Positions 1 to 23,300 of a stretch of 26,972 nt of DNA are shown here, piece after piece. Origin of the DNA: a virus. The DNA lies in the IMG/VR virus record IMGVR_UViG_3300031566_000308, positions 1 through 26,972 of that record; one strand, 5' to 3'. The translations under genes were made by a program, and so were the position numbers. The notes under the pieces were generated by a model, which worked only from the letters and a program-made list of their open reading frames with translations, was not told the origin of the DNA and made no database searches. Position 1 is the stretch's first letter. Each line of letters opens with the position of its first letter.

Positions 1-3000
1 TGCCGGGGATCCCGCGCAACAGATTCTTGCGTCTTAATTCTTTCTCGATGTCAACATCGAACAGCTGGTCGTATAAATACCGCAGCATTTGAAACAATCC
101 ATATACAATCGGATTTCCGGCCACGCCGGCCAAAGCCAGTGTCATGATGGTAAAACGGAGCGCTTTTTTAGGATTCGTCTTAATCCCTTTTGGATTCAGC
201 GTATCCACTGTGTATTTTAGTTGATTCAGTAAAAAGGATTTATAGGGAGAAAACAGCCGGGCCGGTACTTCGCGAATGATCTGGGGTAGGTTTTCCCGGC
301 CCACGCGAAAATTTACCTTATCGTTAAGCTCATATCCGAATTTCCGGGCAAACTCTTCCTGAAGCCGCCGGGTCTTTGCCTTCCAGGAGTCATTTTGCGT
401 CGTCGTTTCATCGGCCAGCCGATCATCGATCTCTCTGCCCAGGGCGAACAGGCTGGACGTATCGGGAACAACCAACCGTGCTGTCTTTGCCGCGGATTTT
501 CCTTTTCCCAGCTGCTTTGCCGCAAAATCTTTACCCGCCCAATAGGTGGAAAAACGATTCATCACTTCAACCGTAGTGAACGGTATCAGGGTTGCTTCCG
601 CGAACCCTTTGGGACCGGCTTTAAACAGCATTTTGCTTTTAAATTCTTTCATTGCGTCTTTGCTGACAAGGATCTCACCGGTTATGGCGCTCACACCCTG
701 GGTAATTCCCATTTTTTCAACTTCAGCCAACAGTTTTTTATTGAAAAAGGTTTTTGCACCGTTTCGATATCCTTTTACCGCGCTCACTTCACCGACAATG
801 GGATACGCGTTCATAAAGAATTGCGATGCATTGGCAATGGCCGAGGATCCGGAAAGGCCCAGATCCCACACATATTGAACCAGGTTGACATTGTGCATGA
901 TCTTTCTAAAGTCCTGCCCGGTAAACCCCGGCACAATTTTTAATTTGTGAAATATATTTGCAATCGCTTCTTCCATATTGGTCGGATGTGCTAAAGTACC
1001 CGGCAAATATACCGTTTCAATGAATTGCTTTAATCGCTGATCTCCGGCCGGCATGGCATCCATGTTCCGCTGAACCTTGCGCCAGAAAATATCCTGCCCG
1101 ACTTTCCTCGATGCACCGTAAAAATACAGCCGCATGATCTCATCCAAATTTTTTATATAATTCGGATTGTCCACCACACGGCGCATCATGTTACCGAAAA
1201 AACGCTTTCGGGGTTTCGGCCTGGCCACCTGGCCTTCGGACAGCATCTGGTGTATTTCATCGGTACTCAGGTCCTCAAAGATCTCGATGGATTCGCCGGC
1301 CTGTTTTTGAATGGCTTTGATCAGGCGCCAGTATCCGCGTTTTGAAAGCATCGTAGCATCGTCAGGAGGAATAAAGGCGTCTTGCATGACCTTTACCCTG
1401 GTTTTTCCTTGTTCGATCCATTCCTGGGCGATCTGCAGGGCCTGGCCGATGGTTTCGACCTTGTGCGAAAACTCATTTTTGGTGCTGATCCAGAACCGGC
1501 CTTGAAAGACATGCGGCAAATACCCTTCCAGATAGCTCACCTGGTGGCCGTTCTTTACAAGATATTCCCTCACATCCTTTAGCAGTGTCCGGACCTTTGC
1601 CGCTGCAACTTCCGCCGGATGATCGCCGGTGATTTCTTCGGTGCTGTCCAATATTTTCAGGACTGTCTTCTTCTCCGGGTCGGATAGCCCTTCTACCGCT
1701 GCATTATATTCAGCCTCCCATACGCGAAAACGCCGGACGGTTTTTTCCTTAAATTCCCGGCCGGATTCGTATATCTTTCGACCTTCATCGGTTTGAGACA
1801 GAACGCTTTCCATGTTCCGGATCCAGCTGCCCAATTGAGGCATGTGCTTTTTCTGCAATATTACGCTTATTTGGGCATCCTGACGACCGCGGATGTAGTT
1901 ATACCAATGCTCTAATCGGGAATTCTGCGCCCCGAGTGCCGCCTTTTTTATTTTCTCTGCCATTTTCTTGGGAACCAGCATATCAATATTGATAAATCCG
2001 GCTTCATTGCCGGCCGAGTCGAACAGATTGTTTGACGGAGAATTGTCGCCAAACCATTCGTTAAAAGATTCCGGCTGAGACGGCGGCGCAAACAACGCCT
2101 TCTGATTCTTGATGTCCTTTGCGGCATCGGACGCATATCCTCTGAATCGCTTCAATAAAGACGTTGGCTTTTCATCGACAAGAAGATGCGCCAGTATAAC
2201 CGCTTCCGAAGACATCGGTTTTTTATCGCCGAACAGACTTCCCTGGGCCATTAATTGATCGACGCTTCCGATATTGTTGTCGGACTTCACCTTTACCGCG
2301 ATTTCAAACGCATCTTTCAGATGCTGAGTTATGTCCCACTGATCTCCCCGGCTGCGGATCCTGGCCACCGGAGACAAGATATAAGCGATTTTATTGGTCA
2401 TTGATTTTGGTGCAACGCTGAGTAGGTCCTGATCGTCGATAACAGCGCCGAGGATGGTTTTTTCTATCATCTCTTTGCCGGCGCTATTCAGCTGATCATA
2501 TTTGTCGTTGTAATATGTGTTGAATTCGTTTTCCGTCAAAACACCATCCCGGATTAGCCTTCGCAATATTTCAACACCGTCCTTCTTGTCGAGCAGCTGC
2601 CGTAAGGTCAGATCGCGGTCTGTAAGCCGGACGCCGATGTTCTCCAGGGTTTCCGGCGATACATTCTTTCCCATGGATACAGTTTTGGCTTCAGCGCTCA
2701 TTCCCTGGGTCAACGGCGCATTAAACAGGCTGGCCAGTTTGTGGAGTGTTTTTTGATCCGTGGCTTCCGCTTTATAGATTCGGACCAGAACGGGTTCATC
2801 GAACTGTTTGACCTTTTCCGGATCCAGGCCGAACTGATCGGCAAATTGAACCAGCTTCTTTTTGAACTTAGTTCCCTTGCCGTATTGCGAATCGAATATA
2901 TACGCCCGCTGCAGGGTCATGGCCCTGGAATTTCCGCCGAGCACGATACCGTTTTCAAGCACAATGGGCGGCCCGTTAATGGCGTCCGGGTTGTTCGTTA

Positions 3001-5986
3001 AAATCAGATCGGTTTTTAAGTTTTTGGCATGGCCAATTACTTTTAATTGCTCGTTTTTATCGCTGTGATACATCCGTTCTTGCACACCTTCGGGATATTG
3101 AGGGTGCTTTGCAAAGGTTTCCGGGCGATGAGACGGAATTAAATCTTTTTGCTCCATCACCGCAAACGTAATGGTTTCCCGATCGCTCCCGGGAACCATT
3201 AGCTTCCGGTCGGCGCCGATTACAACATTCTTGACTTTATCGGGTTTTTGTGTTATCTTTTGTTTGTCTTTAGAAGGAGGTGATTTTATGTCCGAACGTT
3301 TTGTGGATTGGGAGGGGATTCCCTGTGTCATCGACAAGGATGACAAGGTTTGGATAATGAGAGGGTCCAAACGCGTCGAGCCGGAAAGTTCCCGCAGCCG
3401 ATATGCTATCCGGTTCAATTCAGATGAAATTCCCGAAGTCAAGGCCAGAGATATGGCCGGGTCTGACTGATAAATATGATCATAGTATTGCTTTTGTATC
3501 TCCGTTAATTCATCCCGAAGTTCCTTTACCTCTTTGTTGCCCGATTCTTCTGCAGCAATTTCTAATTTTCTATGTACTTCATAAAGTTTATGCCCCGGGC
3601 CGTATTCTTTGGCTTCAAAAAGCCGGTCTTTGGTAAACTGGATTTCTGCAAGCGTGCCGTCCTTGAGACGAACCACCATCAAAATATCCCGATACCCGGT
3701 CGTGAGTGGTTTTTTGAAACGGTCCTTTAACTCCAGCACGCCGTGTTCGCGATCGAATTCCTCAAGCGCCCGGTACATTTCCTTTTCGGTTTTAAAGCTC
3801 ACGGTCGAAGCGATCACGTCTTTTACCCGTGACGCATCGCCGCGATAATCTTTGATTTTTCGCTTTACACGTTCTTTTGATTTTAATTCCTGCGCGTCCG
3901 GCCTGAACCAGGCCTTGGCATTGTATTTTTTGGCAGTTTTTTCGGTGATGTCTTTTAATTCCTTATAGTTCTTTTCCGCTCTCTCATATAATTCATTTAA
4001 ATTATTTACTTTCGGTTGTTTTATGTTCTTTTTGATTTCTCCAACAGCGAACTTTTCACCCCGATCCTTTAATGAAAAATAGGTATGGTTGCCGTCTAAA
4101 ATTATAATTTTGCCGTCGTGTCGTTTGAACAGCTGCAGGGGTTCGCGCTTTTCTTTCAGGTTTCGTTTGGCATCGGACATGTAACGCCAGGTTTTTTTTA
4201 ATTTGCTTTTATCGGGTTTTTCGGTGGGTTGTATATCGTCGATGTCAAAGAGTTGGGCGTCTTCCGTGATTTTAAAATATTGGGTCTGAGCATATTGATC
4301 GAGATAACTTTTTCCTATGGCGCCATACGCCTCTTCCAATAGATATTCAGTTGTATCATATTCCCGATCGGCGGCGGCACGTTCTAAGTCACCCATGTAT
4401 TTGTCGGCAATTTCAATACGCTTGTTTTTTAGTTTCTTGTTATCTATTTCATCCAGTTCTTCCAAGGTTTCATATGTGCCGAATATTTTCTGAAGTTTTT
4501 CCTGGATCTCTTCTCTTGTTCTGGATTCGACCAGGTCTTTGGCCGTTATTTTTTCTTTAAGGATTTTGGGATATTTTTCCGCTTTAATCAGATCGGGTCC
4601 GGCCGCTGCTTTTTGGGCGGGTTCTTCAGCCTTGACTTTTTCAGGTTCTGCCAGACGATTTTGAATCTTACGCATGGTCGTCAGTGCATGAACCGGTTCA
4701 TCGATGATCAGATCTTTTGCCTTTTCTTTTTCCTCCGGAGACAGCTGCTCGATATAGTCTTTGTATTCTTTTAATGCCTTTTCGCGCTTTGTCGGCGGTT
4801 TTGCCGCTTCGGTTTTCGGTACCGTCGGTTCGATAACCGGTTCTGTTTTAACCCCTTCTTCAACAGGTTCTTCAAATGCCTTATCGATCTCGGCCTGTCT
4901 GGCTTCGGCTGCGGTTTTGATTTTATCTTCCGGCGCTTCTTCAAACGCCTTATCGATCTCGGCCTGTCTGGCTTCAGCTGCAGCCTTGACCTTATCTTCC
5001 GGCTTTTCTTTATATTTTTCCTCCAGGCCTTCAAGATCCGGGCGTTTTTCTTCGGTCTTTTTCTCTGCCGGGGCTTTTGCACCCGGAGTCACCACACTGA
5101 CACCGCCGCCAACGATCGCGCCGACGCCGGCGGATCTCAATACCGCCTCCGGATCTATATCTTTGTTTTGGGATACCGCGGCAATGATCTCCTGGGCGCC
5201 TTCCTGGCTGCCTTCCATCAGCGCCGACATAATGGCTTTTCGGACTTTGCCGCCTTTGTCACCGAAGATCCCGAGTTTATTGGTCACCGGCAACAGGACC
5301 ATGTTCATCCAGAAGGTTTTCGACGCCGCATCCTCTGCTTTTTTAACGTCTTTGGTATCCTGAAGGGTTTCTCTGTATCCAAGACCGGCTTCGGTCATGG
5401 CTTCCAATGCAGACGCAACCCCCACACCGGCCCAGACAGCCAATTTAGGCGCCAGGAGTGCGGCCGCTTGTGCGCCCCTGGCAACACCGATACCGGGTAT
5501 AAAGAACGTGGCCACGGATCCGACGCCCATGGCGATTTCATCGACAAAGGTTGGATCTTCCGGCGCCAGTTCTTCCCGCCAGGCTTTGGCCACATTGGCC
5601 AGTTCTTTAGCGGTCTCACTTCCGGTAATCCATTCAACACCGCCGATCAGGCCTTCAGCGGTCCCCAGGGCGCCGGAAATAACATTGTCCCCCATCTGTT
5701 CAAGGCGTTTTAACCGGGATCCTTCGGGATAGACTTCGCTCTTATATTGTTCCGGAGTCAAGCCCCGCTGCATGGCTTCCAGGCCGATCTGGGCTTCGGC
5801 GGTCCGCTCGGGAAGGGATTGCCGCGGCATCATGCTTTCGAACATGCCGGGTTTTTTCGGAACATCCTGGCGCAAAGACGGCGCTCCGTAAAATTCGGCC
5901 TGAATGGTATTTCTCATGACATATTCGGGAGTCCCATCCGGAAACTCAACGGTTATGCCCTTATCTGGAAGTTCTATCTCGATCAT
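1..5986 (-). CDS. giant polyvalent virion/ejection protein (partial, open at left edge)
   Basis: One frame stays open from the ATG at 5986 to the window edge, giving at least 1,995 residues with no stop seen. It starts in an ATGA overlap with the preceding gene. Residues 1-31 carry an ELPD..EFPDGTP motif seen at the start of phage internal virion proteins. Hydrophobic Gly/Ala-rich stretches follow at about 153-197 and 280-305, then a charged linker with a duplicated 23-residue unit (about 328-378). A ParB-like motif ILDGNH lies near 631. A RelA/SpoT-like domain spans about 690-800 (DYRGDASRVKDVI at 713, GYRD at 764, EIQ at 781). A DdrB-type ParB domain has GPPIVLENG and GGNSR (1017-1021). A FNEWFGD motif near 1308 resembles the start of polyvalent ADP-ribosyltransferase domains, without the rest of it. 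The remainder is helical, with YLPHVF near 1489 and a hydrophobic segment near 1945-1970. This fits the large polyvalent proteins injected with phage DNA. The individual domain calls are inferences from motifs. Confidence 0.85.
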   Translation of the reverse strand, partial: MIEIELPDKGITVEFPDGTPEYVMRNTIQAEFYGAPSLRQDVPKKPGMFESMMPRQSLPERTAEAQIGLEAMQRGLTPEQYKSEVYPEGSRLKRLEQMGDNVISGALGTAEGLIGGVEWITGSETAKELANVAKAWREELAPEDPTFVDEIAMGVGSVATFFIPGIGVARGAQAAALLAPKLAVWAGVGVASALEAMTEAGLGYRETLQDTKDVKKAEDAASKTFWMNMVLLPVTNKLGIFGDKGGKVRKAIMSALMEGSQEGAQEIIAAVSQNKDIDPEAVLRSAGVGAIVGGGVSVVTPGAKAPAEKKTEEKRPDLEGLEEKYKEKPEDKVKAAAEARQAEIDKAFEEAPEDKIKTAAEARQAEIDKAFEEPVEEGVKTEPVIEPTVPKTEAAKPPTKREKALKEYKDYIEQLSPEEKEKAKDLIIDEPVHALTTMRKIQNRLAEPEKVKAEEPAQKAAAGPDLIKAEKYPKILKEKITAKDLVESRTREEIQEKLQKIFGTYETLEELDEIDNKKLKNKRIEIADKYMGDLERAAADREYDTTEYLLEEAYGAIGKSYLDQYAQTQYFKITEDAQLFDIDDIQPTEKPDKSKLKKTWRYMSDAKRNLKEKREPLQLFKRHDGKIIILDGNHTYFSLKDRGEKFAVGEIKKNIKQPKVNNLNELYERAEKNYKELKDITEKTAKKYNAKAWFRPDAQELKSKERVKRKIKDYRGDASRVKDVIASTVSFKTEKEMYRALEEFDREHGVLELKDRFKKPLTTGYRDILMVVRLKDGTLAEIQFTKDRLFEAKEYGPGHKLYEVHRKLEIAAEESGNKEVKELRDELTEIQKQYYDHIYQSDPAISLALTSGISSELNRIAYRLRELSGSTRLDPLIIQTLSSLSMTQGIPSQSTKRSDIKSPPSKDKQKITQKPDKVKNVVIGADRKLMVPGSDRETITFAVMEQKDLIPSHRPETFAKHPQYPEGVQERMYHSDKNEQLKVIGHAKNLKTDLILTNNPDAINGPPIVLENGIVLGGNSRAMTLQRAYIFDSQYGKGTKFKKKLVQFADQFGLDPEKVKQFDEPVLVRIYKAEATDQKTLHKLASLFNAPLTQGMSAEAKTVSMGKNVSPETLENIGVRLTDRDLTLRQLLDKKDGVEILRRLIRDGVLTENEFNTYYNDKYDQLNSAGKEMIEKTILGAVIDDQDLLSVAPKSMTNKIAYILSPVARIRSRGDQWDITQHLKDAFEIAVKVKSDNNIGSVDQLMAQGSLFGDKKPMSSEAVILAHLLVDEKPTSLLKRFRGYASDAAKDIKNQKALFAPPSQPESFNEWFGDNSPSNNLFDSAGNEAGFINIDMLVPKKMAEKIKKAALGAQNSRLEHWYNYIRGRQDAQISVILQKKHMPQLGSWIRNMESVLSQTDEGRKIYESGREFKEKTVRRFRVWEAEYNAAVEGLSDPEKKTVLKILDSTEEITGDHPAEVAAAKVRTLLKDVREYLVKNGHQVSYLEGYLPHVFQGRFWISTKNEFSHKVETIGQALQIAQEWIEQGKTRVKVMQDAFIPPDDATMLSKRGYWRLIKAIQKQAGESIEIFEDLSTDEIHQMLSEGQVARPKPRKRFFGNMMRRVVDNPNYIKNLDEIMRLYFYGASRKVGQDIFWRKVQRNMDAMPAGDQRLKQFIETVYLPGTLAHPTNMEEAIANIFHKLKIVPGFTGQDFRKIMHNVNLVQYVWDLGLSGSSAIANASQFFMNAYPIVGEVSAVKGYRNGAKTFFNKKLLAEVEKMGITQGVSAITGEILVSKDAMKEFKSKMLFKAGPKGFAEATLIPFTTVEVMNRFSTYWAGKDFAAKQLGKGKSAAKTARLVVPDTSSLFALGREIDDRLADETTTQNDSWKAKTRRLQEEFARKFGYELNDKVNFRVGRENLPQIIREVPARLFSPYKSFLLNQLKYTVDTLNPKGIKTNPKKALRFTIMTLALAGVAGNPIVYGLFQMLRYLYDQLFDVDIEKELRRKNLLRGIPG
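3231..3259 (+). promoter_or_regulatory. sigma70-type promoter with extended -10, antisense to the polyvalent gene
   Basis: TTGACT at 3231-3236 is followed by a 17-bp spacer and TATCTT at 3254-3259. TGT sits directly before the -10 box, which is an extended -10 TGn motif. The start codon of the plus-strand gene lies 28 bp downstream, and no other plus-strand gene is nearby. Confidence 0.6.
3288..3470 (+). CDS. small antisense gene embedded in the polyvalent protein gene
   Basis: This 60-residue protein is encoded on the opposite strand to everything around it. The ATG at 3288 is preceded by AAGGAGGTGA, a full match to the 16S anti-Shine-Dalgarno complement, 7 nt from the start, and by an extended -10 promoter. 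This start was chosen over longer in-frame extensions for that reason. The product is hydrophilic (MSERFVDWEGIPCVIDKDDK at the N-terminus) with no signal peptide or membrane segment, and I do not recognise its family. On the other strand the same DNA encodes a Ser/Thr/Lys/Pro-rich linker between the RelA/SpoT-like and DdrB-ParB domains, so overlap there would be tolerated. It behaves like a moron gene, transcribed separately from the late operon. The reading frame is certain; its expression is inferred. Confidence 0.65.
   Translation: MSERFVDWEGIPCVIDKDDKVWIMRGSKRVEPESSRSRYAIRFNSDEIPEVKARDMAGSD
4878..5015 (-). repeat. two tandem 69-bp units inside the polyvalent protein
   Basis: Two adjacent copies with a 69-bp period encode a 23-residue unit built on AAEARQAEIDKAFEE. 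They are nearly identical at the DNA level over their first ~30 bases. They lie in a Lys/Glu-rich, probably helical linker ahead of the ParB-like region. The phase is preserved, so copy number could vary without breaking the frame. Confidence 0.85.
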
Positions 5987-8467: not shown

Positions 8468-9514
8468 CTAACAAATCAAATGTCCTTGGATATATGTAGT
8501 GTTTGCAGCAATATCGATGCACTTAGTACCATTTAATACTGCCAAAAGAATATTGCACGTATCGTTTGCATCCATTTTAACCTCTATGCTTGCTGAAAAA
8601 GTTAAATAGCCGCCATAACTACAAGCATAAGGATTTAATACCGTTGCGACATAATTTCCGTTTGACAGGATAAAAAATAAAACCAAATAATTATTAGCTG
8701 CCAAATATCCACCAGTATCAAGGGTGGCAGTAAATAGGTATTTACCGTCAACAGGCGCAGTAAAAGCACCATTACTGAAATTATTTCCTTGGTCGTAAAT
8801 TTCCGTCCATATCGCGCCCGTTATTGAAAAATTAGTTCCATCTCCGGTTACATCGACTTGGGTAGTGTTCAGATAAGCGCGAAATGCCGGTTGACTTGGA
8901 TTGAGCATTTCTCCATTGTCAGATACCGAGATCGTTGATTCCTGGATGTTCCTGGATCCCCCATCACCCCGGGTTAATTTATTATCGGCTAAAACCGCTG
9001 TTGATTCTGTCAAGGTGATGGGTTTGCCCGAAACCTTTGTCCAGGCTGATTTTTGTTCGTCTGCTGCCTCTCCTGACAGACCGGTTATTGATATTTCATC
9101 AACGCCGCCGTTTTCATGGTCGGCGGCGTGATCTGTAGGAAAGGTTATTTCATCAGCTCCCCCCGGTTCATGGCTTGCGTGGTGTGGTGTTGGATCGAAA
9201 GTCAAAGGCTTGCCCGAAACCTTTGTCCAGGCTGATTTTTGTTCGTCTGCTGCCTCTCCGCTTAAAGCGGCAATTGATATTTCATCAGCGCCGCCATCCT
9301 GGTGAACGACGGCATGTTTGGCCAAAGATTTTGGGCTGATATTGCGCAGAATGCGCCCTTTGATATCCGGATCCTGGCCGATGGCGTCAACCTGATCGAG
9401 TCTTAGGCCGATATCCTGCAACACTCGATTAATTTCCGAGATGGAAACCTGGCCGATTCTATATTGGCGCCGGCGGGTATTGGTTGGCGCTGAATTTGAT
9501 TTCGGGTTGCTCAT
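8468..9514 (-). CDS. tail fibre/adhesin with C-terminal C1q-like head
   Basis: The 348-residue protein starts in an ATGA overlap with the nozzle-like gene. Residues about 1-60 (RRRQYRIGQVSISEINRVLQ) are a probable virion-anchoring segment. The stem at about 65-170 has repeated H-x2-GG(A/V)DEI motifs, with two identical blocks around SGEAADEQKSAWTKVSGKP. Residues about 210-348 match the C1q/TNF-like jelly-roll: FRAYLN, VTGDGTNFSITGAIW, a GAFTAPVDGKYLF strand pair, and alternating strands to the C-terminus. C1q-like heads occur on phage and bacterial adhesins, so the likely role is receptor binding. A homotrimer is expected from the fold. Confidence 0.85.
   Translation of the reverse strand: MSNPKSNSAPTNTRRRQYRIGQVSISEINRVLQDIGLRLDQVDAIGQDPDIKGRILRNISPKSLAKHAVVHQDGGADEISIAALSGEAADEQKSAWTKVSGKPLTFDPTPHHASHEPGGADEITFPTDHAADHENGGVDEISITGLSGEAADEQKSAWTKVSGKPITLTESTAVLADNKLTRGDGGSRNIQESTISVSDNGEMLNPSQPAFRAYLNTTQVDVTGDGTNFSITGAIWTEIYDQGNNFSNGAFTAPVDGKYLFTATLDTGGYLAANNYLVLFFILSNGNYVATVLNPYACSYGGYLTFSASIEVKMDANDTCNILLAVLNGTKCIDIAANTTYIQGHLIC
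9024..9259 (-). repeat. identical 50-bp direct repeats in the fibre stem
   Basis: Positions 9024-9073 and 9210-9259 are identical over 50 bp. The offset is 186 bp, exactly 62 codons, so recombination between the copies would delete or duplicate stem sequence in frame. The repeats encode part of the GEAADEQKSAWTKVSGKP block. Confidence 0.9.
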
Positions 9515-12788: not shown

Positions 12789-12986
12789 CTATACATCTAT
12801 TCGAATATGATGTGACTCACAATTATCATTAGTACAGTGAAAGGTGCAGGCAGGAGTACTATATATCTCACTACCACAAAATTCACACATATCCCCCGTT
12901 AATAAATCCTGATCGTATAAATCATCAGCTTCACTGTACTCGTATTTATCTGCAACCATGGCAGGTTGAACATTGTCGGCAACCAT
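12789..12986 (-). CDS. small zinc-ribbon protein, 65 aa
   Basis: GAGGG lies 4-5 nt before the ATG at 12986; an earlier TTG at 13016 is in frame but would overlap more of the micro-gene upstream. The acidic N-terminus (EYSEADDLYDQDLLTGD) is followed by C34-x2-C37 and C47-x3-C51-x4-C56-x2-HH, a likely single zinc ribbon. Its first 41 bp overlap, in a different frame, the end of the 42-codon CxxC peptide gene. Function is unknown; similar Cys-rich proteins are common in phage structural operons. Confidence 0.6.
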   Translation of the reverse strand: MVADNVQPAMVADKYEYSEADDLYDQDLLTGDMCEFCGSEIYSTPACTFHCTNDNCESHHIRIDV

Positions 12987-13074
12987 ATTTCCCTCTTTTT
13001 TTCTTAATAGCATCAAACATGAATGTCATGTTTTTAACCAATTCATATTTTGGTTTAATGTATTTTTTCTTCAT
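12946..13074 (-). CDS. CXXCH-containing Cys-cluster micropeptide A, 42 aa
   Basis: An ATG at 13074, 11 bp after the stop of the 294-aa adaptor gene, opens a 42-codon frame (checked codon by codon) ending TAA at 12946. The product starts MKKKYIKPKYELVKNMTF, continues MFDAI and a KKKRGKYG linker, and ends CRQCSTCHGCR. It is clearly paralogous to the peptide at 17068-17241: both have PK, MTF-x2-D-x-I, a Gly-Lys linker, and C-x2-C-x2-C-x2-C at the very C-terminus, with CXXCH inside. The conserved pattern in two different loci argues strongly that both are real genes. The ribosome site is weak (GAG about 15 nt upstream), so coupling to the adaptor is likely. No signal peptide. Possible roles include metal binding, [Fe-S] binding, disulfide crosslinking or a modified peptide; none is shown. 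Confidence 0.75.
   Translation of the reverse strand: MKKKYIKPKYELVKNMTFMFDAIKKKRGKYGCRQCSTCHGCR
13015..13033. repeat. perfect 8-bp inverted repeat with 3-nt loop
   Basis: AAACATGA and TCATGTTT flank ATG. It lies inside the 42-codon micro-gene, so it is probably coding-driven; a short T run follows on the plus strand, but the stem is AT-rich and unlikely to terminate. Confidence 0.5.
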
Positions 13075-13085
13075 AATAATTGATT

Positions 13086-13970
13086 TTACTCAGATGGATA
13101 ATCAAACAGTTCGCCGCTCATTGGACCGGTCACGCCGCCGCCGGGGATCCCCGCATCATCCAGCGGCCCTTTATGCTCGGCGTTATACTGAAGATCCTTG
13201 ACGGCCCCGTACCATTTCGGACCGAACTTCTTTTTTTTGACTTGATGGACTCTAAGCCGGGATCCGGTCAACAGCCGGTCGGCAACACCGTATTTTAAAT
13301 CCTTGTGAATATACTCCGGTATTTCACTGTCGATATACTGATTCGGGTTGTCCGGAAACTCCGGCGCTCTCACGAACGAAAGCATGATGTTCCCATACGG
13401 TGAAATAATCTCCCGGATAATTTGGCCGTCGCCGGACCGGGTAAACGGCACCCCGGATATTCGCCGTAAAGCCAGGTTGTCATCGTAAGGCAAAACATTG
13501 CCGTCTTCATCCACAACCCGCCGTAAAAGACCGTAATCGCTATCACGGGTAAAGCTCGATCCTGCCGCGCTCGGCGTCGGGTAAAATCCGATCTTACCGA
13601 AATCGATATTATCCTTAAAGAATTCTCGCGGAAAACCTTCCTCTACCATGCCGCGGCCTGATCGATCATATTCAGCCATGGACCGCGGCAAGACCACCGT
13701 GCCGGATAGGCCGTGGATCCCGACCCTTAATATCCGGATGCAATCACCGAACAGATCATAAATGGCCACATCTTCCTTCAAGGGAAGAATCCGAACAGCC
13801 TTTAATACTCCCGTTCGTCGAACCATATCCAAAACCGTATCTTTTAAAGCGGTTTCAGCTTCTTCCCAGGACCATTTTTTGCCGTCTGATCCGGACGCCC
13901 GGAAATCATTGCAAAGCCGAAGGGTATCGTCTAAAATTTGCAATACGGTTCTGGCATAGGGACTAGCCAT
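13086..13970 (-). CDS. head-tail adaptor-like protein 1, 294 aa
   Basis: The N-terminal helix bundle (WSWEEAETALKDTVLDMVRRTGVLKAVRILPL) and the C-terminal helices (SEIPEYIHKDLKYGVADRLL) bracket a beta-rich centre with a FGDCIRILRVGI motif. This is the arrangement of podovirus adaptor proteins that dock below the portal. It shares local similarity with the 233-aa protein downstream, so the pair are probably duplicated and diverged ring proteins. It overlaps the preceding gene by 8 bp. Confidence 0.65.
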   Translation of the reverse strand: MASPYARTVLQILDDTLRLCNDFRASGSDGKKWSWEEAETALKDTVLDMVRRTGVLKAVRILPLKEDVAIYDLFGDCIRILRVGIHGLSGTVVLPRSMAEYDRSGRGMVEEGFPREFFKDNIDFGKIGFYPTPSAAGSSFTRDSDYGLLRRVVDEDGNVLPYDDNLALRRISGVPFTRSGDGQIIREIISPYGNIMLSFVRAPEFPDNPNQYIDSEIPEYIHKDLKYGVADRLLTGSRLRVHQVKKKKFGPKWYGAVKDLQYNAEHKGPLDDAGIPGGGVTGPMSGELFDYPSE

Positions 13971-14364
13971 ATATCGCCTTATCGGCTTCCTGATCGGTGA
14001 TGCTGCGTTTAAGCGCGATTTTTCGAAGCTTATTGAAATCTTTAGCGGTTATCCACCCCACCAACTCAAACGGAAACCGCGGCGCGTGAGACACCACTTT
14101 CCGCCGGCGAACCATATCCACGTCGCCGCCGGCGGAATCCTCAGACTCCACAACGGGTTCAGTCGCGTTTCGCAGGGCATGAACCACTTCCAGCTTGACC
14201 GGGATAAATTCAATTCGCTTCATCCTGACAGGATTTCCGTTCACCCGAACGTAGATAATGTCAGGATCCTGCTTTCGGGTTTTCCCTGGAAATTTAATCA
14301 ATGCAAATTCCTTGGGCGCGTTTTTTGGCCGGTCATTCGGTTTTTCTTGGGTATTTTCTGTCAT
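13963..14364 (-). CDS. small phage head-module protein, 133 aa
   Basis: GGAGAAGAATT precedes the ATG. The central portion (YVRVNGNPVRMKRIEFIPVKLEVVHALRNA) follows the pattern of small podovirus proteins with a V-x-NG...I-x-R...VPV...vL-x-NA motif, found between capsid and adaptor genes. The N-terminus is Pro/Lys-rich, the C-terminus basic and helical. Function is unknown; a minor head or connector-associated role is a guess from position. Confidence 0.7.
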   Translation of the reverse strand: MTENTQEKPNDRPKNAPKEFALIKFPGKTRKQDPDIIYVRVNGNPVRMKRIEFIPVKLEVVHALRNATEPVVESEDSAGGDVDMVRRRKVVSHAPRFPFELVGWITAKDFNKLRKIALKRSITDQEADKAIYG

Positions 14365-14389
14365 AATTCTTCTCCGGTTGAATTCATAG

Positions 14390-14418
14390 GGGATCCCGGG
14401 GACTTGGGCCGGGATCCC
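14390..14418. repeat. perfect 10-bp inverted repeat (hairpin) in the 14365-14427 gap
   Basis: GGGATCCCGG (14390-14399) and CCGGGATCCC (14409-14418) flank a 9-nt loop. Each arm also contains a palindromic GGATCC. There is no T run on either side in the direction of transcription, so it is not a standard terminator; an RNA-processing or mRNA-stabilising hairpin just after the 169-aa gene is possible. Confidence 0.6.
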
Positions 14419-14427
14419 AGGTTTGAT

Positions 14428-14937
14428 TTACCGCGTAGCGATCCAGAGCAGCTGTTCGCCGCTGACATTCAGATCTGCGTCGGCGCCGATCTTAAATCCC
14501 GGCGTCGTCTTCAGCTTCATACCGTGCCTTGGATCGGGATCGACCGCATCGCCATAACATTGATACAAGGCCGCCGTAGCGGCGGCCCGTTCATAATGGC
14601 CGTTAACATAGATCTCTTCCTTGGAATTGAGATCCGTTAAATTATCGACCCAATTGCCGGATGCACTGTCAAAGACGATTTCATCGCCGCCGGGATATTC
14701 GCTGATCCCGTCGGCTGCCAGTAAAGCCCGAGTCGGTGCCGCTATTCCGCTTTCCTTAATACCTTCATCCAGTGCGGCAATGACTTTCATACCCTTCCAC
14801 CATTCAGCTTCGGGATAAAGTGCGCCGACATCTTCGGGATTGATGACCTTGACATGCCTGGGAATAAACCCCAGGCACACATTGATCACCGCGCCGGTAC
14901 CGTCACAGGTTCCATGCACTACACCACTTAATTCCAT
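14428..14937 (-). CDS. putative capsid decoration/minor head protein, 169 aa
   Basis: The N-terminus MELSGVVHGTCDGTGAVINVCLGFIPRHVKVIN matches a common small virion-protein start (…GTGAxIxVxLGFxPxxVxVxN). It follows the major capsid gene directly, as decoration or head-fibre proteins often do. The ribosome site AGAAGGAG lies 9 nt upstream. Residues are mainly beta/loop with no membrane or catalytic motifs. The gene is bracketed by hairpins at 14972-14998 and 14390-14418. Confidence 0.65.
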   Translation of the reverse strand: MELSGVVHGTCDGTGAVINVCLGFIPRHVKVINPEDVGALYPEAEWWKGMKVIAALDEGIKESGIAAPTRALLAADGISEYPGGDEIVFDSASGNWVDNLTDLNSKEEIYVNGHYERAAATAALYQCYGDAVDPDPRHGMKLKTTPGFKIGADADLNVSGEQLLWIATR

Positions 14938-14971
14938 GTCAATACTCCTTCTTGTTTATTTATTGGGTTAT

Positions 14972-14998
14972 GGGTTCAGAGCTTTAAGCCCTGAACCC
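14972..14998. repeat. hairpin between major capsid and decoration genes
   Basis: GGGTTCAG and CTGAACCC (8 bp) flank an inner GCTT/AAGC pairing. It lies between the capsid stop (15017) and the next ribosome site. No T run follows on the minus strand, so a role in partial attenuation or RNA processing, to keep capsid mRNA in excess, is only a suggestion. Confidence 0.55.
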
Positions 14999-15016
14999 CT
15001 TGACGCTACTTACACC

Positions 15017-16015
15017 CTATGTCGGATTTTCCGTCACCGCGCACTCGATTCTTTCCATCAGTTCATCGGACAGGATGCAGCCCGCGTGCCAGAATTTCCA
15101 GCCCAGGGTGCCGCGCTGGCCCAATGGATCGCCGCCCCTGGGTTTTGGGTTGACAACGGCGATGTTGCCGGAATTCACACCGCGAAGCGGCACCGTACAC
15201 CAGGCATCCGGAGCAACCACGATCACCGGATAGACATCGGCGTTTACGCCGGTCGTTGACAGCATGGCCCCCTTGGCACCGCCGGCATCCGCCCAGGGTG
15301 AGAACATGGTGGTCAACAGAAACCGGATGTTCTCTGCGGCGCAGACTTCATACGGCATGGCCTTGGATGGATCCGGATAGTTCTGAACCTTGGTACATCC
15401 GGCAATCCCGGTCAGATCGGCTTCGATATCGGTATGGCCGAATCCGACAAATGACGCACCAATGGGTTCTGTGGCGTATTTTGGTGATCCGGCCAAAATT
15501 TCCATGTAATATTCGGCATCCGATCCCCGGAGGCTTCTGATTACTTTTTTCAGATCACCCTTATCAAAAAAGGTGTTGACATCGGTTCGGGCAGCGCCGT
15601 TCGCATACAAAACGCTGGTTCCGCCCTTGAGAATCCCGATATTGAGATCTTCACGGGTCTCCCGCATTTGCCGGGATTGCAAACCTTTAAATTCTGCCAG
15701 AACCGGATCTTCGTGGGTATCCTGGATAACATCGGTAAGACCGATCCAGTCGCCGTATTGTTCTAACGTACATTGCACATCCACGTACTGCGGTTTGGTG
15801 CCTGGGGGAGTTACGCCTTCCTGCAATGGACCGGTGGCCCTTGCAAGTACCAGGTACCGGCGGAAGATCATCACCCGGCCCTTGCCTTTGGGCATGGGTT
15901 TTGTCTGGGCGGTCCGTTCCGTTACAATTCCCGGAACCGTCCGCTTGAGCAGCTTGCCCCAGGCCGCGAAATTGGTACGTGGAGAAATATCACCATAATG
16001 CGTATATTCGGACAT
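15017..16015 (-). CDS. major capsid protein, N4-gp56 family, 332 aa
   Basis: The motifs MIFRRYLVLARATGPLQEGVTP, CTLEQYGDWIGLTDVIQDTHEDPVL and a GGTSVLYANGA loop identify the N4-gp56 family of HK97-fold capsids. It builds the icosahedral shell. Length (332 aa) is at the lower end of that family's range. The ATG at 16015 is preceded by AAAAGGAG, a strong site fitting high expression. It lies directly downstream of the scaffold gene, the usual order. Confidence 0.92.
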   Translation of the reverse strand: MSEYTHYGDISPRTNFAAWGKLLKRTVPGIVTERTAQTKPMPKGKGRVMIFRRYLVLARATGPLQEGVTPPGTKPQYVDVQCTLEQYGDWIGLTDVIQDTHEDPVLAEFKGLQSRQMRETREDLNIGILKGGTSVLYANGAARTDVNTFFDKGDLKKVIRSLRGSDAEYYMEILAGSPKYATEPIGASFVGFGHTDIEADLTGIAGCTKVQNYPDPSKAMPYEVCAAENIRFLLTTMFSPWADAGGAKGAMLSTTGVNADVYPVIVVAPDAWCTVPLRGVNSGNIAVVNPKPRGGDPLGQRGTLGWKFWHAGCILSDELMERIECAVTENPT

Positions 16016-16055
16016 GATAAAAACTCCTTTTTATCCGCCGGTTTTTTTGGCGGAA

Positions 16056-16991
16056 TTACGTCGCATGTTCGTCAAATATTTCCTCTGGTGATTTGTCCTC
16101 ATCTTTTTTTGCTCTGGCTTCCGGACCGGTCGAAGCGCCGGGCTTGATCCCGCCGGCCGCGATATCTTTGACATCCTTGGCGATATCGCCGCCCAGATCG
16201 GCATCGTGCGTCGCTGCTGCAGTGCCGGCCTTTTTGGTCTTATACCGGGTAAGGACATCGATGGCCGCGCCCGGATCCGATATATTGTTTAGGGTAGGAT
16301 CCCGCACAAGTTCGGCCGTAAACCAATCTTGATAATCCTTCGTGGCCATGATTTTGTAGGCATCCGGCTGGCCGTCCTTCCACTGGCCGCCGTCTGCCAT
16401 AAATCCGGTTACCACTGCTTTTTCAAAATTGGCCTGGCCAAGCTGTTCTTGCATCCCGGTAACCACTTTTTGAATTTCTTCGGGATTCAGGCCGCCCATC
16501 ATCTTTTTTGCCAAATGCTCAAAAGCTTTCTTGGCCTCCGGATAATCTTCAAGATATGATTTGATTTCTTCGGGCATATCGTCGTCGGATTGATCCAGTC
16601 CCCCGGTTTTGGTCCCTGGCGGATCCGTTGCGTCAACCTTCTTTTTCAATTCTGCAACGGTCGATGTCAAGCCATGCGCCCAGGTTTGGGTGTTCCTGAG
16701 TTGTTTTTCAAGATCTTCATAACTGGGCTTTTTAGAGAGTTCATCACCATCCTTAGTTTCGTCACCGGGCGTTTCTGTCCCTGCCGCACCCGGGTGGCTT
16801 GCATCGTCGGTAATCTCTGAACCTTCAGGGGCCGTTTCTTTTCCGGTAATCCCTTCCGGTGTTTCAGGGGCCGTTTCTCCAAGACCTTCGGCAAAAGCCG
16901 CTTCAGCGTCTTCTTCGGTAAATTCTTCGGCGTCTTCGGCTTCAGTTGTTCCGCCGCCTTTATTAGCGGCATGTCCAGCTTCTTTACTCAT
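16056..16991 (-). CDS. scaffolding protein, 311 aa
   Basis: An acidic, Ala/Glu/Gly-rich N-terminal half (long runs of EDAEE, TPE, TETPG) leads into predicted coiled coil (YEDLEKQLRNTQTWAHGLTS), then conserved PEEIKSYLEDYPEAKKAFEHLAKKM and a helical C-terminus. This low-complexity, acidic and helical makeup is typical of capsid scaffolds, as is the place between portal and capsid genes. AAAGGAG lies 10 nt before the ATG at 16991, which was chosen over an in-frame start at 17024. Confidence 0.82.
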   Translation of the reverse strand: MSKEAGHAANKGGGTTEAEDAEEFTEEDAEAAFAEGLGETAPETPEGITGKETAPEGSEITDDASHPGAAGTETPGDETKDGDELSKKPSYEDLEKQLRNTQTWAHGLTSTVAELKKKVDATDPPGTKTGGLDQSDDDMPEEIKSYLEDYPEAKKAFEHLAKKMMGGLNPEEIQKVVTGMQEQLGQANFEKAVVTGFMADGGQWKDGQPDAYKIMATKDYQDWFTAELVRDPTLNNISDPGAAIDVLTRYKTKKAGTAAATHDADLGGDIAKDVKDIAAGGIKPGASTGPEARAKKDEDKSPEEIFDEHAT

Positions 16992-17067
16992 TATGAATAG
17001 TCTCCTTTGGTAATCCAGGCTCAAACAGGCCGTTTCCGGTAATCCGCTTAAACGAGGGCCATTTTTT

Positions 17068-17241
17068 TTATTTACAGTTATGGCAGGATGAGCATTGTTT
17101 GCAAACCTGGCCTTTCCCTGTGGATTCGATAATATCGATCGGGAAAGTCATTTTATTTTTTCTCACAATTTTTGGAGGCTCATATTCCCGCTGATTATTT
17201 TTATCACTTTTTTCTATGGTTTTAAATCGTCTCTTCTTCAT
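17068..17241 (-). CDS. CXXCH-containing Cys-cluster micropeptide B, 57 aa
   Basis: The ATG at 17241 overlaps the upstream stop as ATGA and has AAGGAGAAGACTT in front, an excellent start. The 57-residue product is basic (MKKRRFKTIEKSDKNNQREY), carries EPPKIVRKNKMTFPIDIIES and ends CKQCSSCHNCK. Compared with peptide A it shares PK, MTF-x2-D-x-I, Gly-Lys, and the terminal C-x2-C-x2-C-x2-C with internal CXXCH. It sits between portal-adjacent and scaffold genes and would be co-translated with them. CXXCH is the haem c attachment motif, but no export signal is present, so a zinc, iron-sulfur or redox-disulfide role is as likely. I recall similar short phage peptides but no function. Confidence 0.8.
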   Translation of the reverse strand: MKKRRFKTIEKSDKNNQREYEPPKIVRKNKMTFPIDIIESTGKGQVCKQCSSCHNCK

Positions 17242-17531
17242 AAGTCTTCTCCTTGTTCTTCATCTTGGGTGTCTTTGGCAAATATTTGTTTGCCTATTTC
17301 TTTAGGCAATTCAATTAAATCATTGGCCAGGTTCCACACGCCCTTGAAATATCCGCTGCTTTCAAGGCCCTGGTCTAACCGCATGTGTTTTTTAAATGCT
17401 GCATCCCGGATCCGGGTCAGATATCGATCAAATACCGGCCAGTTTGGGTCCCGCATGAGCGCTGCCAGGCTTTGGGCCTCATTTTCATCGATGGCCGGGC
17501 CGGTCTTTATGTTTTCAGATCGTTCTTTCAT
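17238..17531 (-). CDS. small hypothetical protein downstream of portal, 97 aa
   Basis: GGAG about 9 nt before the ATG at 17531 supports this start; the gene overlaps the portal by 17 bp and the next gene by 4 bp (ATGA). The product is charged and helical (DENEAQSLAALMRDPNWPVFDRYLTRIRD), ending in an acidic tail. I do not recognise a family, but similar small proteins often follow portal genes. Confidence 0.75.
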   Translation of the reverse strand: MKERSENIKTGPAIDENEAQSLAALMRDPNWPVFDRYLTRIRDAAFKKHMRLDQGLESSGYFKGVWNLANDLIELPKEIGKQIFAKDTQDEEQGEDL

Positions 17532-19365
17532 TAATCGCCGCTCCGGGCGGTCCTTGCATAAAGGGTTGTGGGAGAAGCTTGGCAATGCCTTCAGCTTCTT
17601 CGGTCAATTCCTTGTCTGTCGGAAAGTAGGCGTCCGGATCCAGATCCCTGGTTCTGGCCAACTCCCGCAAAAACGGCAATACTTTGGTAAACTGTGCGGT
17701 AAACTCCGAGCTTAATGCAACCTGGAGTAACGACAGGACATCCTGAGATCGTCTTGCCCGGTCTATAAATGTCTGGTAACCTTTGGCTTCCGGCATAAAA
17801 TCGCCCTTGATCATTTCATCCGGATTGGTCACCATGTGATAATGATAATGGCCGGTTACCACCGGTTCGGTATGCCCTTCATCGGTGTTGCGAATGGTGC
17901 CGCCGATCATTTTATTACCGGCCTCGGCCATTTTGCTCATTTCATAGGCCGTGCGCCGGTCTTTGGAATCAACCTGGCCTTCCATGTTTCTCGATATACC
18001 CGACTCGTGGTCGGCAAATTCTCGAAACAGATTGATCATGTCCGGGGTCCCCCGGGTATTGTCCGGCGGAGCATAAAACTGCATGGCCTGGCGAACATCT
18101 TCGGTGCCTTCTTCAACTTCGAATGTTTTTCCCGGATACAGGGTTTTGTTCTGCCCTGGGGCCAGTCGCCGGGGGTTCCAGTACAAAAGCAAGTTGGAAG
18201 AGAGTGCTTTATTATCGAGCATGGACCGGGTCAGGCCGTTGATGATCATCTGGGAGTCTTCTATATTTTCCGGGATCCCGACACCGCCGGCTTCCAGCGG
18301 CAAATGTTCCCACTTCGCCAGATACGTGGGTCTGTATGGAAATTGATTGATCACCGGCGGCCGGATAATCTCCGCCTGCTTGGCCTTGGCCACTACGCAA
18401 AAAATCTCGACTTCACGATCCTTCTTTTTAGATAAGCCGCGGATTTGCGTCTTTGCCCTGCCTTCATATCCAATCAAATATTTTCTCGGGACCCGGCCGT
18501 AAAAGGTATAAACCGGGATAACGCGCTTTCGCTTGTTGAACCTTTCATGCGCCGGGCCAAAGGAATCATCGTCTTCATCCGAAGCGTCGTCTCTGTCGGT
18601 AAACTGATCGGCAATCCGCTGTATGGCCTTTGCATCATACCCGTTGGTTTCGGCCAGATCCAAAAACCGGCCTTTTGACATCATATCCCGGATAATAACC
18701 CCGTGGCCCTGGTTGTGATCGGAATTTTCCAGATCCCAGAACACATTCCATACACCCGGATTTTCAACCACCGGCTGGTAAGTTTTTTGAGGTGTCATGA
18801 TGTGCCGGCCATACCGTTGCAAAATCTCCGGTGAATAATAGAGTTGATCCAGACCCGGAACACCAAACTGAACCGACATGCCGTTAAACGGTCGGAGCAC
18901 CGGACCCCTTAACCAGGACAACCCATACAGCGCATTTTCCAGCCCGGAACTCATAAAAACCCGATCCGCTTTTGCGTGGATGAAATCCCCCTTGATCTGC
19001 AGCCGCATGCGATCACACCGCTCTTTGGCCGTGTTGGGATCTAAAGCAGCCATGGACCTGTTCGTCGGGATCGGGGACGGTTGAATATCCCAGGGGATCT
19101 TGCCTTCTTGAAGCATGACGGACATCACCTGGTTAAATCCGGTCACCACTTTTTGCTTGGTCAACCGAACAAATACCTTGCTGCGCCAACCCCGGCCTTC
19201 GGTCGCTTTCCAGCGCTTCAACGCATCCGAATCGTATCTGCCCCTGAACGCATCGTAATTGCGCCGCCAGGTAGGTTCCAGTTGACCGTTCCGCTCTTCC
19301 TTGAACCATGAAAACAGATCGTCAACGATGTATTTGGCAAGTTTAGTTTCTTCGGTGTCTGGCAT
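17515..19365 (-). CDS. portal protein, 616 aa
   Basis: Residues give typical podovirus portal sequence: WRRNYDAFRGRYDSDALKRW, a long middle with VWNVFWDLENSDHNQGHGVI and VIPVYTFYG, a PLEAGGVGIPENIEDSQMII stretch and a C-terminal helical wing (DVLSLLQVALSSEFTAQFTK). Portals form the dodecameric ring that carries DNA at one capsid vertex. The length fits the family (about 600-750 aa). The ATG at 19365 with GGAAG upstream was preferred to an in-frame start at 19437. It is upstream of scaffold and capsid, and downstream of terminase, the standard order. Confidence 0.88.
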   Translation of the reverse strand: MPDTEETKLAKYIVDDLFSWFKEERNGQLEPTWRRNYDAFRGRYDSDALKRWKATEGRGWRSKVFVRLTKQKVVTGFNQVMSVMLQEGKIPWDIQPSPIPTNRSMAALDPNTAKERCDRMRLQIKGDFIHAKADRVFMSSGLENALYGLSWLRGPVLRPFNGMSVQFGVPGLDQLYYSPEILQRYGRHIMTPQKTYQPVVENPGVWNVFWDLENSDHNQGHGVIIRDMMSKGRFLDLAETNGYDAKAIQRIADQFTDRDDASDEDDDSFGPAHERFNKRKRVIPVYTFYGRVPRKYLIGYEGRAKTQIRGLSKKKDREVEIFCVVAKAKQAEIIRPPVINQFPYRPTYLAKWEHLPLEAGGVGIPENIEDSQMIINGLTRSMLDNKALSSNLLLYWNPRRLAPGQNKTLYPGKTFEVEEGTEDVRQAMQFYAPPDNTRGTPDMINLFREFADHESGISRNMEGQVDSKDRRTAYEMSKMAEAGNKMIGGTIRNTDEGHTEPVVTGHYHYHMVTNPDEMIKGDFMPEAKGYQTFIDRARRSQDVLSLLQVALSSEFTAQFTKVLPFLRELARTRDLDPDAYFPTDKELTEEAEGIAKLLPQPFMQGPPGAAINERTI

Positions 19366-19663
19366 TTTTCTTCCATACCTCTTCAACTTTTTGAAATACG
19401 CGGGTTTCACGGTTTTTATGCGTAAATACCGGAGCATAAACCCTTAAAATGGTTTGCTTTTTATAGATGTAATCCGCATATCCCATATGATCGAAGGTTT
19501 CGATCCCGGCGTGTTTGGCCATATCCAGTTGATCCGGTTCTTTGCCGGTAATCTCTCTAATGGCATTGTAAAAAGCGCCGTGAATCATTTTCCGGTGCTC
19601 TACCGCCATATCATGCAGCAACTGATTTCGACCGGCCGGGCGGATTATATTGTCAATACTCAT
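19343..19663 (-). CDS. small hypothetical protein, 106 aa
   Basis: The frame starts 2 bp after the preceding stop and overlaps the portal start by 23 bp. The product is basic and helical, with a GYADYIYKKQTILRVYAPVF segment. No family recognised; the tight coupling to the portal suggests a head-assembly accessory role. Confidence 0.75.
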   Translation of the reverse strand: MSIDNIIRPAGRNQLLHDMAVEHRKMIHGAFYNAIREITGKEPDQLDMAKHAGIETFDHMGYADYIYKKQTILRVYAPVFTHKNRETRVFQKVEEVWKKNARHRRN

Positions 19664-21743: not shown

Positions 21744-23300
21744 TCACATCCCCACTGTTGCGTCTAAGGGTACATATTTATCTTTTTGCCGCTCTTCGAT
21801 CTCTCCGGGTGTGGCCGGGCGCCAGTGTTCGGCCAGCTGATGACAAAGAAGAGCGATCGAATCTATAATGTCTTTATCCTTGCCTTTCGGAAATCTTCTG
21901 ATCTGCAATTCTGCATGAGATAACCATTCAGGTTGATCCGGTGCTTTTTTCGGCAAAAAAACCGCGCCTTCTTTGGCCCGGCCCTGGGCCGGCCTGGCCT
22001 TTGCGACTTTATCGCCCTTGGGCATCCGCGGATCCGTATTGATAAAATATCCGGTTTCTCGCATCTTGATCTTCAAAAACGGCATGATCGTTCGTTGAAT
22101 ATTTTCAGCTTCAATTGTAAATATGCCCGGTTTATATTTCCGCTGAACCTCGATCATCTCTTCAATAATTTCCAAAGAACCCCAATGCCCGTGAATGACA
22201 TCGATAATAAAAAGATCGTAATATGTATTTACACCGCCGACGACAATAGCAGTCTCGGCGGAAGTTTTCTTTTCAGATATGGCAAGATCCGCAGCTGCGA
22301 ACATATTAAGCCGCCGGGGAAGTTTGGTATAACGGCCAAACCATTTGAGTTGAAAAAATGCGTTTTCATCTTCCGGTACCGGATCCAGAAGGTACTGGCA
22401 TGAATAGATATAAATCCCGACGGCCGGGTCCCGCTTGATTTTATCCAGAACCCTTGGCCCGAATTGAACCGGCCAGAGGGTTCGGCGGTGTTTGATACTA
22501 TTTTCTGTCTCATGCCATTCCGCCGCCCGTTTATAGACCCGGTATTCTCCGGAGTCCTCCATTTCCCTGTGAAGATCACCGTCGTCATAAATCGTGCCGC
22601 ATATTTGAATATTGCCGTCCGGCTGAAGGATCGATGATCGCACGGTTCCGTAATTATGCCGGGTTTTATTGATCTGATCCGCGGTCGTGACCGTCTCGGG
22701 TGTAACCAGGTCGTCGCATTTGATTCTCGGGAAGTGCAGCCCGGTCGGCATGTTGTCAATGCCATACGCGCCGATGGAAGGTTCCTGGCCCCCTTGATGA
22801 ATTTTAAGAATAAGCTCTTCATCGGTCCATTTGTCGGATTGCCGTTTCGGCTTTTGAAAGAGAAGTTCCGGAAAAAGCCATTTAAGATCGGCATTCTTTT
22901 CAAATTGATACCGTATCGGCCTGAGTTTCCATTTTGCCTTTTTGGATTGATCGCAAAAAATACCGATGGGTTCGGAAGGGTTTTTAAGATAATTTCGGAT
23001 GGTATCTGCAGTGTTGTAGATCTGTGTCTTACAGTGTCCCCTGGGGAGCAAATACAGCGAAAAACTGATGTCTTTCTCGATTTCTTCGCAAAATACTTTA
23101 TGGGGATCCCAACAGATCCACCAATACCCCAGAATGTATTTTGTAAGAAAATAAAGATCATTTTTAACGACCTCACGGAGGATTTCACGCTGTTTTTTTT
23201 CCGGCTCCGATTCCAAATCGATTAGAAATTGATCGTATATTGGATCCGGCCGGTACAGTGGATGCGTCGATATTCGGCTTGCCGTCATCTCCAGTTTCAC
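21744..23300 (-). CDS. terminase large subunit, 518 aa
   Basis: The ATPase has a Walker A variant LLPRGHCKT (87-92 is the RGHCKT core) and a Walker B-like IKCDD (D196, D197). A nuclease domain follows: D338 in AAADLAIS, an Asp/Glu in IEAENIQ near 391 and DSIALLCHQL near 479 supply the RNase H-like metal ligands. It packages DNA into the prohead. The frame begins at a GTG (23300) or ATG (23288), overlapping the small-subunit gene by over 100 bp; no later ATG fits, so the overlap is real or the subunit gene is shorter than drawn. Length is within the usual 450-600 aa. Confidence 0.9.
   Translation of the reverse strand: MKLEMTASRISTHPLYRPDPIYDQFLIDLESEPEKKQREILREVVKNDLYFLTKYILGYWWICWDPHKVFCEEIEKDISFSLYLLPRGHCKTQIYNTADTIRNYLKNPSEPIGIFCDQSKKAKWKLRPIRYQFEKNADLKWLFPELLFQKPKRQSDKWTDEELILKIHQGGQEPSIGAYGIDNMPTGLHFPRIKCDDLVTPETVTTADQINKTRHNYGTVRSSILQPDGNIQICGTIYDDGDLHREMEDSGEYRVYKRAAEWHETENSIKHRRTLWPVQFGPRVLDKIKRDPAVGIYIYSCQYLLDPVPEDENAFFQLKWFGRYTKLPRRLNMFAAADLAISEKKTSAETAIVVGGVNTYYDLFIIDVIHGHWGSLEIIEEMIEVQRKYKPGIFTIEAENIQRTIMPFLKIKMRETGYFINTDPRMPKGDKVAKARPAQGRAKEGAVFLPKKAPDQPEWLSHAELQIRRFPKGKDKDIIDSIALLCHQLAEHWRPATPGEIEERQKDKYVPLDATVGM

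Follow-up and report, generated by a model that had tools for sequence, protein, structure and literature searches.

A family of Cys4-His micropeptides in phage head modules and its link to cellular radical SAM cassettes

Two Cys-rich peptide genes in a phage head module

The window analyzed here is the whole of a 26,972-base IMG/VR virus record (IMGVR_UViG_3300031566_000308), whose head module is encoded on the minus strand. Within this module lie two short genes, for peptide A (57 residues) and peptide B (42 residues), each ending in an 11-residue tail with four cysteines and a histidine (Cys4-His). An initial annotation of this DNA had proposed a pair of paralogous CXXCH micropeptides here; both frames are present with the shared motifs it described, and its coordinates stand, although it gave no strand: the genes lie on the minus strand, and the plus strand there stops early. 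Comparison with cellular homologues suggests that viruses supply the substrate of a peptide pathway and leave its completion to the machinery of another cell or to further phage proteins.

Peptide A belongs to what is termed here the MTFP class (leader YEPPKIVRKNKMTF) and carries the core CKQCSSCHNCK at its extreme C terminus, while peptide B belongs to the MTFMFD class (leader YIKPKYELVKNMTF; core CRQCSTCHGCR). The spacing from MTF to the first cysteine is 16 residues in both, and one peptide used as query recovers the other within the window at E=1.3e-6. The two are thus true paralogues, as had been proposed, with a likeness far beyond chance. A family profile matches both at ~1e-22, both being among the profile's own 32 rows. 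A strong Shine-Dalgarno sequence, AAGGAG, lies 7 nucleotides ahead of the peptide A ATG; none was found ahead of the peptide B start, and its translation may be coupled to that of a neighboring gene. Neither peptide has a hydrophobic N-terminal export signal, as read from the sequences, and the structure model of the peptide is largely unstructured, with a single helix at 34-40.

The genes of the module follow in the order terminase, portal, a 90-residue open reading frame (ORF), peptide A, probable scaffold, capsid, three unassigned ORFs, peptide B, and a zinc-ribbon-like ORF (Table 1). The scaffold candidate found no match in a PHROG search; its placement is that of the ORF preceding the capsid gene in Pseudoalteromonas phage vB_Pun_Y3 and Pseudomonas phage Rollin. 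These N4-gp56-capsid phages share with the window a homologous capsid and the terminase-portal-scaffold-capsid order, yet the peptide was not found in the 11-13 kb of their head regions that were searched. In the window phage, the peptide is therefore an accessory gene.

Table 1. Coordinates of the window genes and of related features on other contigs
Feature	Location	Strand	Basis or remark
Terminase large subunit	window 21744..23300	minus	phrog_38
Portal / head-tail adaptor protein	window 17515..19437	minus	phrog_332, phrog_1216
Peptide A, 57 aa	window 17068..17241	minus	Between portal and scaffold/capsid genes; MKKRRFKTIEKSDKNNQREYEPPKIVRKNKMTFPIDIIESTGKGQVCKQCSSCHNCK
Probable scaffold protein	window 16056..16991	minus	Position; acidic, helical composition
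Major capsid protein	window 15017..16015	minus	phrog_1357; homologue of N4-gp56-family capsid of phage Y3
Peptide B, 42 aa	window 12946..13074	minus	MKKKYIKPKYELVKNMTFMFDAIKKKRGKYGCRQCSTCHGCR
Small Cys-rich zinc-ribbon-like ORF, ~55-65 aa	window 12789..12986	minus	Start within 3' end of peptide B gene, other frame
Long frame, at least 1995 aa	window 2-5986	minus	Open at contig edge
110-aa protein, SDGYPMDGWHRI box	L036:8114-8449; L038:8352-8696; L071:6391-6723 and 8844-9176; L079:8146-8475; L135:3001-3321
Portal with methyltransferase domain	L007:7921-9810
Zinc-ribbon-like protein of another phage	L085:~1015-1242
Asparagine-synthetase ATP-binding domain	L006:2721-3446
Tandem peptides, Pacearchaeota	L017:7896-8302
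RiPP-type operons	L014:8182-14221; L043:6594-15303

The peptide family and its bacterial cassette

Both peptides belong to a family, provisionally named YPMF-C4 peptides in this analysis, with the pattern Y-x2-P-x7-M-x-F, a variable linker, and C[RK]QCSSCHxC[RK] ending at the stop codon. The family was found in ~33 prokaryote genome records and ~40 viral records. Scanning genomes yielded 33 loci, in records of Desulfobacterota, Myxococcota, Chloroflexota, Actinomycetota, Calditrichota, Bacillota, the candidate phyla radiation (CPR), and DPANN (three of the contigs, L028, L036, and L038, are themselves phage-like), and a second viral scan gave 39. The leader register Y-x2-P-x7-M-x-F occurs in all 63 distinct peptides, those of the window included, if conservative replacements of P, M, and F are allowed, and both window peptides end against the stop codon in C[RK]QC[ST]xCHxC[RK]. 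Because these two scans used the patterns C[RK]QCS[ST]CH or C[RK]QCSSCH, invariance within C[RK]QCSSCH is partly a matter of ascertainment. The last three residues and the leader are free of this effect, as is the result of a scan of viral contigs with the MTF and YxxP regions only, in which all nine loci recovered also carried the Cys core. Among 65 core-coding DNA sequences, all distinct, the mean pairwise difference at codon positions 1, 2, and 3 was 0.16, 0.12, and 0.56, respectively; such near-invariant first and second positions beside a near-saturated third position demonstrate coding constraint, and bear out the selection that the initial annotation had argued from the shared spacing.

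The family is unnamed in NCBIfam and Pfam and spans bacteria, CPR, DPANN, and phages. Neither window peptide belongs to a family in these databases, a Pfam match to PF12669 (E=0.057) being one of Cys composition, and a comparison of 32 members with NCBIfam gave only weak chance matches and none to a precursor model. The PDB, searched with the peptide profile, gave no match; 50,697 cultured phage records (three peptide queries) and plasmids (one query) gave only chance matches, with E of 4 or more. No account was found in the literature searched for the motif and for phage precursors of ribosomally synthesized and post-translationally modified peptides (RiPPs).

In 17 bacterial genomes, a radical S-adenosylmethionine (SAM)/SPASM protein of 340-375 residues (~500-590 bits) is encoded directly upstream of the peptide, its gene being broken into two frames in one of them, and every bacterial genome with a readable locus, that is, a long enough contig, has this gene beside the peptide. 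Between the two lies a gene of the PqqD/RiPP recognition element (RRE) type (PF05402; ~90 residues), found in 15 of the 16 genomes searched and above the curated cut-off in 14; the sixteenth has masked bases where the gene is expected. Behind the peptide are genes for an alpha-toroid (squalene-cyclase-like) protein, a family-4-type glycosyltransferase, and an asparagine synthetase, and further for metallo-beta-lactamase, HD, dGTPase-like, or PHP proteins. Together these define an uncharacterized cellular RiPP-type cassette. For a 584-residue HD-like operon protein, the structure model was poor (pLDDT 48) and was not used. Maturase-bearing genomes hold exactly one peptide copy each, and the idea of resident prophages, which would have been inferred from extra copies, was dropped. 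The operons of L014 and L043 are uncharacterized RiPP-type operons with alpha-toroid and glycosyltransferase genes, in which the variable metal-dependent hydrolases (metallo-beta-lactamase, HD, dGTPase-like, PHP) are possibly variable effectors.

The closest PDB relatives of the cassette RRE profile are the lasso B1 proteins TfuB1 and TbiB1, and YxxP is a documented motif for lasso-type RREs (PMC12710340, PMC13381572). The cassette radical SAM protein resembles SkfB, CteB-type, and PqqE enzymes. Its nearest NCBIfam model is TIGR04340 ("ACGX system"), of which it is not a member, since its scores of 192-202 bits are about half of the curated cut-off of 400. The linkage to an RRE and a radical SAM enzyme, together with the lasso-type YxxP leader, makes it almost certain that in cells the peptide is a RiPP-type precursor, and post-translational modification, one of several options in the initial annotation, is strengthened accordingly.

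Comparison with known peptide systems shows both kinship and divergence. With YxxP-leader RiPPs that use discrete RREs, namely lasso peptides and linear polyphosphorylated peptides (PMC13381572), the family has in common the YxxPx[I/L/V/F] leader motif, and its cellular cassettes have the stand-alone B1-like RRE and, in MTFP-class operons, an asparagine-synthetase-type enzyme like lasso cyclases. However, the core is a C-terminal Cys4-His element, the main cellular neighbor is a radical SAM/SPASM enzyme, and the window phage is without any processing genes. The window peptides carry the YxxP leader motif for a B1-type RRE but have no lasso core, in which an N-terminal ring residue goes with Asp or Glu at core position 7-9; their 11-residue Cys4-His tail offers no such acceptor. 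With sactipeptides and ranthipeptides (SkfB, CteB, SCIFF; TIGR04340), the cassette shares a radical SAM/SPASM gene beside a short Cys-rich precursor, but differs in the sub-threshold TIGR04340 score and in a precursor outside all NCBIfam precursor models.

The radical SAM proteins linked to MTFMFD peptides form a separate clade (100/100 support), so that the two peptide classes track two maturase clades, and both classes are represented in the window, by one peptide each. Sister radical SAM proteins scoring 320-350 bits (L088-L094) have no such peptide nearby.

Orphan peptides in viruses and their proposed maturation

In at least 24 of ~32 distinct viral contexts, by our own count, the peptide lies among terminase, portal, or capsid genes; exceptions include L028, L038, L057, L061, L065, L071, L077, L081, and L135. 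The initial annotation had placed the pair in a head operon and had looked to other head operons for homologues, and these clearly exist. The adjoining head genes are unrelated from phage to phage: terminases of phrog_38, 9, and 2, portals of phrog_332, 12, 2662, 156, 213, and 113, and capsids of phrog_1357 and phrog_10. The peptide occurs in the terminase-portal gap, in the portal-capsid gap, ahead of the terminase, or behind the portal. On contigs of at least 40 kb, 11 of 13 peptides (own count) lie within 5 kb of a terminase or portal gene, with a binomial P of ~1e-5 if 25% are expected to do so and of 3e-4 if 35% are. This setting, common to phages with unrelated head genes, suggests that the modified peptide has a late or virion-linked role, of which the literature searched holds no description.

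While the bacterial homologues lie beside an RRE and a modifying enzyme, the phage genes do not, and besides the window phage, ~30 phages, mostly unrelated, carry the peptide without a modifying enzyme. No radical SAM gene was found in 34 viral records totaling 1.03 Mb, 13 of them contigs of 45-66 kb, whereas all 14 control genomes were positive, and no PqqD gene was found in 27 viral records. The leader is nonetheless as well conserved in orphan as in cassette-linked peptides (Y, 43/43 versus 20/20; P, 42/43 versus 20/20; M, 43/43 versus 19/20; F, 41/43 versus 19/20), and the core is preserved equally well in the 43 distinct orphans and the 20 linked peptides. In CPR and DPANN, the peptides neighbor HAD, P-loop kinase, or APH-like genes. 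A Pacearchaeota chromosome carries both peptide classes in tandem (L017), and genes for a TrmB-like regulator, HAD proteins, and kinases recur near several CPR/DPANN peptide loci (L017, L019, L029, L037, and L040).

The explanation that we favor, with a probability of about 55%, is that the window genes encode orphan RiPP-type precursors, which a host maturase would complete in trans for use late in the infection. In bacteria, the peptide would be the substrate of its dedicated cassette: the most likely binding partner of the YxxP leader is the PqqD-like RRE, and modification of the C-terminal C-x2-C-x2-C-H-x-C core, perhaps by a thioether or other C-S crosslink, most likely falls to the radical SAM/SPASM enzyme. 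The phage, which keeps a recognizable leader and core and encodes neither RRE nor maturase, would most likely have its precursor finished by a host or co-resident cassette. A late head-module transcript would then make the finished peptide available during head assembly and packaging, and two paralogues that match two maturase clades could serve hosts of either type. The viruses would thus present a testable case in which, of a whole radical SAM peptide pathway, just the substrate is carried. A broader proposal, tentative and on present evidence rather doubtful, is that unrelated phages, CPR, and DPANN all carry orphan precursors that a radical SAM cassette in another cell matures in trans, the phage peptide acting in the virion or leaving with it; if true, it would mean that viruses and hosts, and likewise episymbionts and hosts, share a peptide natural-product pathway.

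Several observations weigh against maturation by a host cassette. The viral records are fragments, radical SAM proteins of the core type are rare, occurring in 2 of the 297 genomes from one phylum, and a matching maturase in the host of the window phage is presumed. Four CPR and three DPANN genomes have chromosomal peptides without a matching radical SAM or PqqD gene, and three of these seven, which are incomplete metagenome-assembled genomes, have no SPASM protein at all; the peptide would then function independently of this maturase, at least there. Phage-encoded partners may also be more important than host ones. The main rival, which we consider unlikely, is that the peptide is active without this radical SAM maturase, through metal binding or redox chemistry of the Cys4-His element or through other modifying enzymes, the bacterial cassette being a later elaboration. 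The kinase- and HAD-associated CPR and DPANN peptides fit this alternative, as do the phage copies with recurrent neighbors of their own, and binding of [Fe-S] or zinc by the unmodified peptide is possible. Yet the YxxP-x7-MxF leader has no connection with metal binding and is equally strict in orphan and maturase-linked peptides, and the radical SAM gene adjoins the peptide wherever a bacterial locus can be read.

A less probable alternative is that the phage peptide is a decoy, which floods the host RRE and maturase and so blocks a peptide pathway of the host that may be directed against phages. The intact recognition motif without a maturase, the correspondence of two peptide classes to two maturase clades, and the variable, nucleotide-hydrolase-like operon partners (HD, dGTPase-like, metallo-beta-lactamase), one of which matches a PADLOC dGTPase, would all suit such a role. 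However, a leader alone would suffice for a decoy, and the equal conservation of the 11-residue core in orphans favors the finished product as the object of selection; counter-defense from a late head operon would also come late unless the peptide is packaged, and apart from that dGTPase and generic viperin-family radical SAM matches, no operon protein clearly matches PADLOC. Heme c attachment, raised in the initial annotation from the CxxCH string, or another cytochrome-like role is very improbable. Weak NCBIfam cytochrome matches (E ~0.02-0.1) arise in 2-3 of 32 members, but the string comes without the export signal of a c-type cytochrome, the constant four-Cys spacing is not needed for heme c, and the neighbors are RRE and radical SAM genes rather than Ccm genes. 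A heme or zinc reading is not the best one for these peptides. Finally, the ORFs are very short and peptide B lacks a Shine-Dalgarno sequence, but chance ORFs or misbinned host DNA are next to inconceivable given third-position saturation with invariant residues and the presence of the peptide in ~40 viral records, with terminase, portal, and capsid genes on the same contigs.

Phage-encoded partners of the peptide

Several phage proteins recur beside the peptide. A 110-residue protein with an SDGYPMDGWHR box is encoded directly downstream of it in L036, L038, L079, and L135, and two copies flank it in L071; the first five copies share 55-77% identity. A scan with a single member of this protein alone revealed L135, where the peptide has the core CRQCCSCHGCR and had escaped the peptide scans, and in all viral loci found via the 110-residue protein the peptide is adjacent or close. 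The protein is absent from the 19 cellular genomes tested; a first impression of ParB/sulfiredoxin likeness was not confirmed by PF02195 or PDB searches.

In L007, the portal protein carries a class I methyltransferase domain at its C terminus and is encoded directly ahead of the peptide, and a related methyltransferase is a separate gene in the same position in L028, ~0.2 kb from the peptide in L072 (the gene being cut at the contig start), and 1.1 kb from it in L081. The zinc-ribbon-like protein of a different phage (L085) is 56% identical to that of the window and has the same overlap with the peptide gene; its N-terminal likeness is partly forced by the overlap, but the YSEADDLYDQD stretch that follows is independent. 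In L006, a stand-alone asparagine-synthetase ATP-binding domain, with a distant likeness to the asparagine synthetase in the bacterial operon, ends at the base immediately ahead of the peptide ORF. Judged from these neighbors, phages may add tailoring or binding proteins of their own. Elsewhere in the window, the long frame at the contig edge probably encodes a large ejection or internal virion protein.

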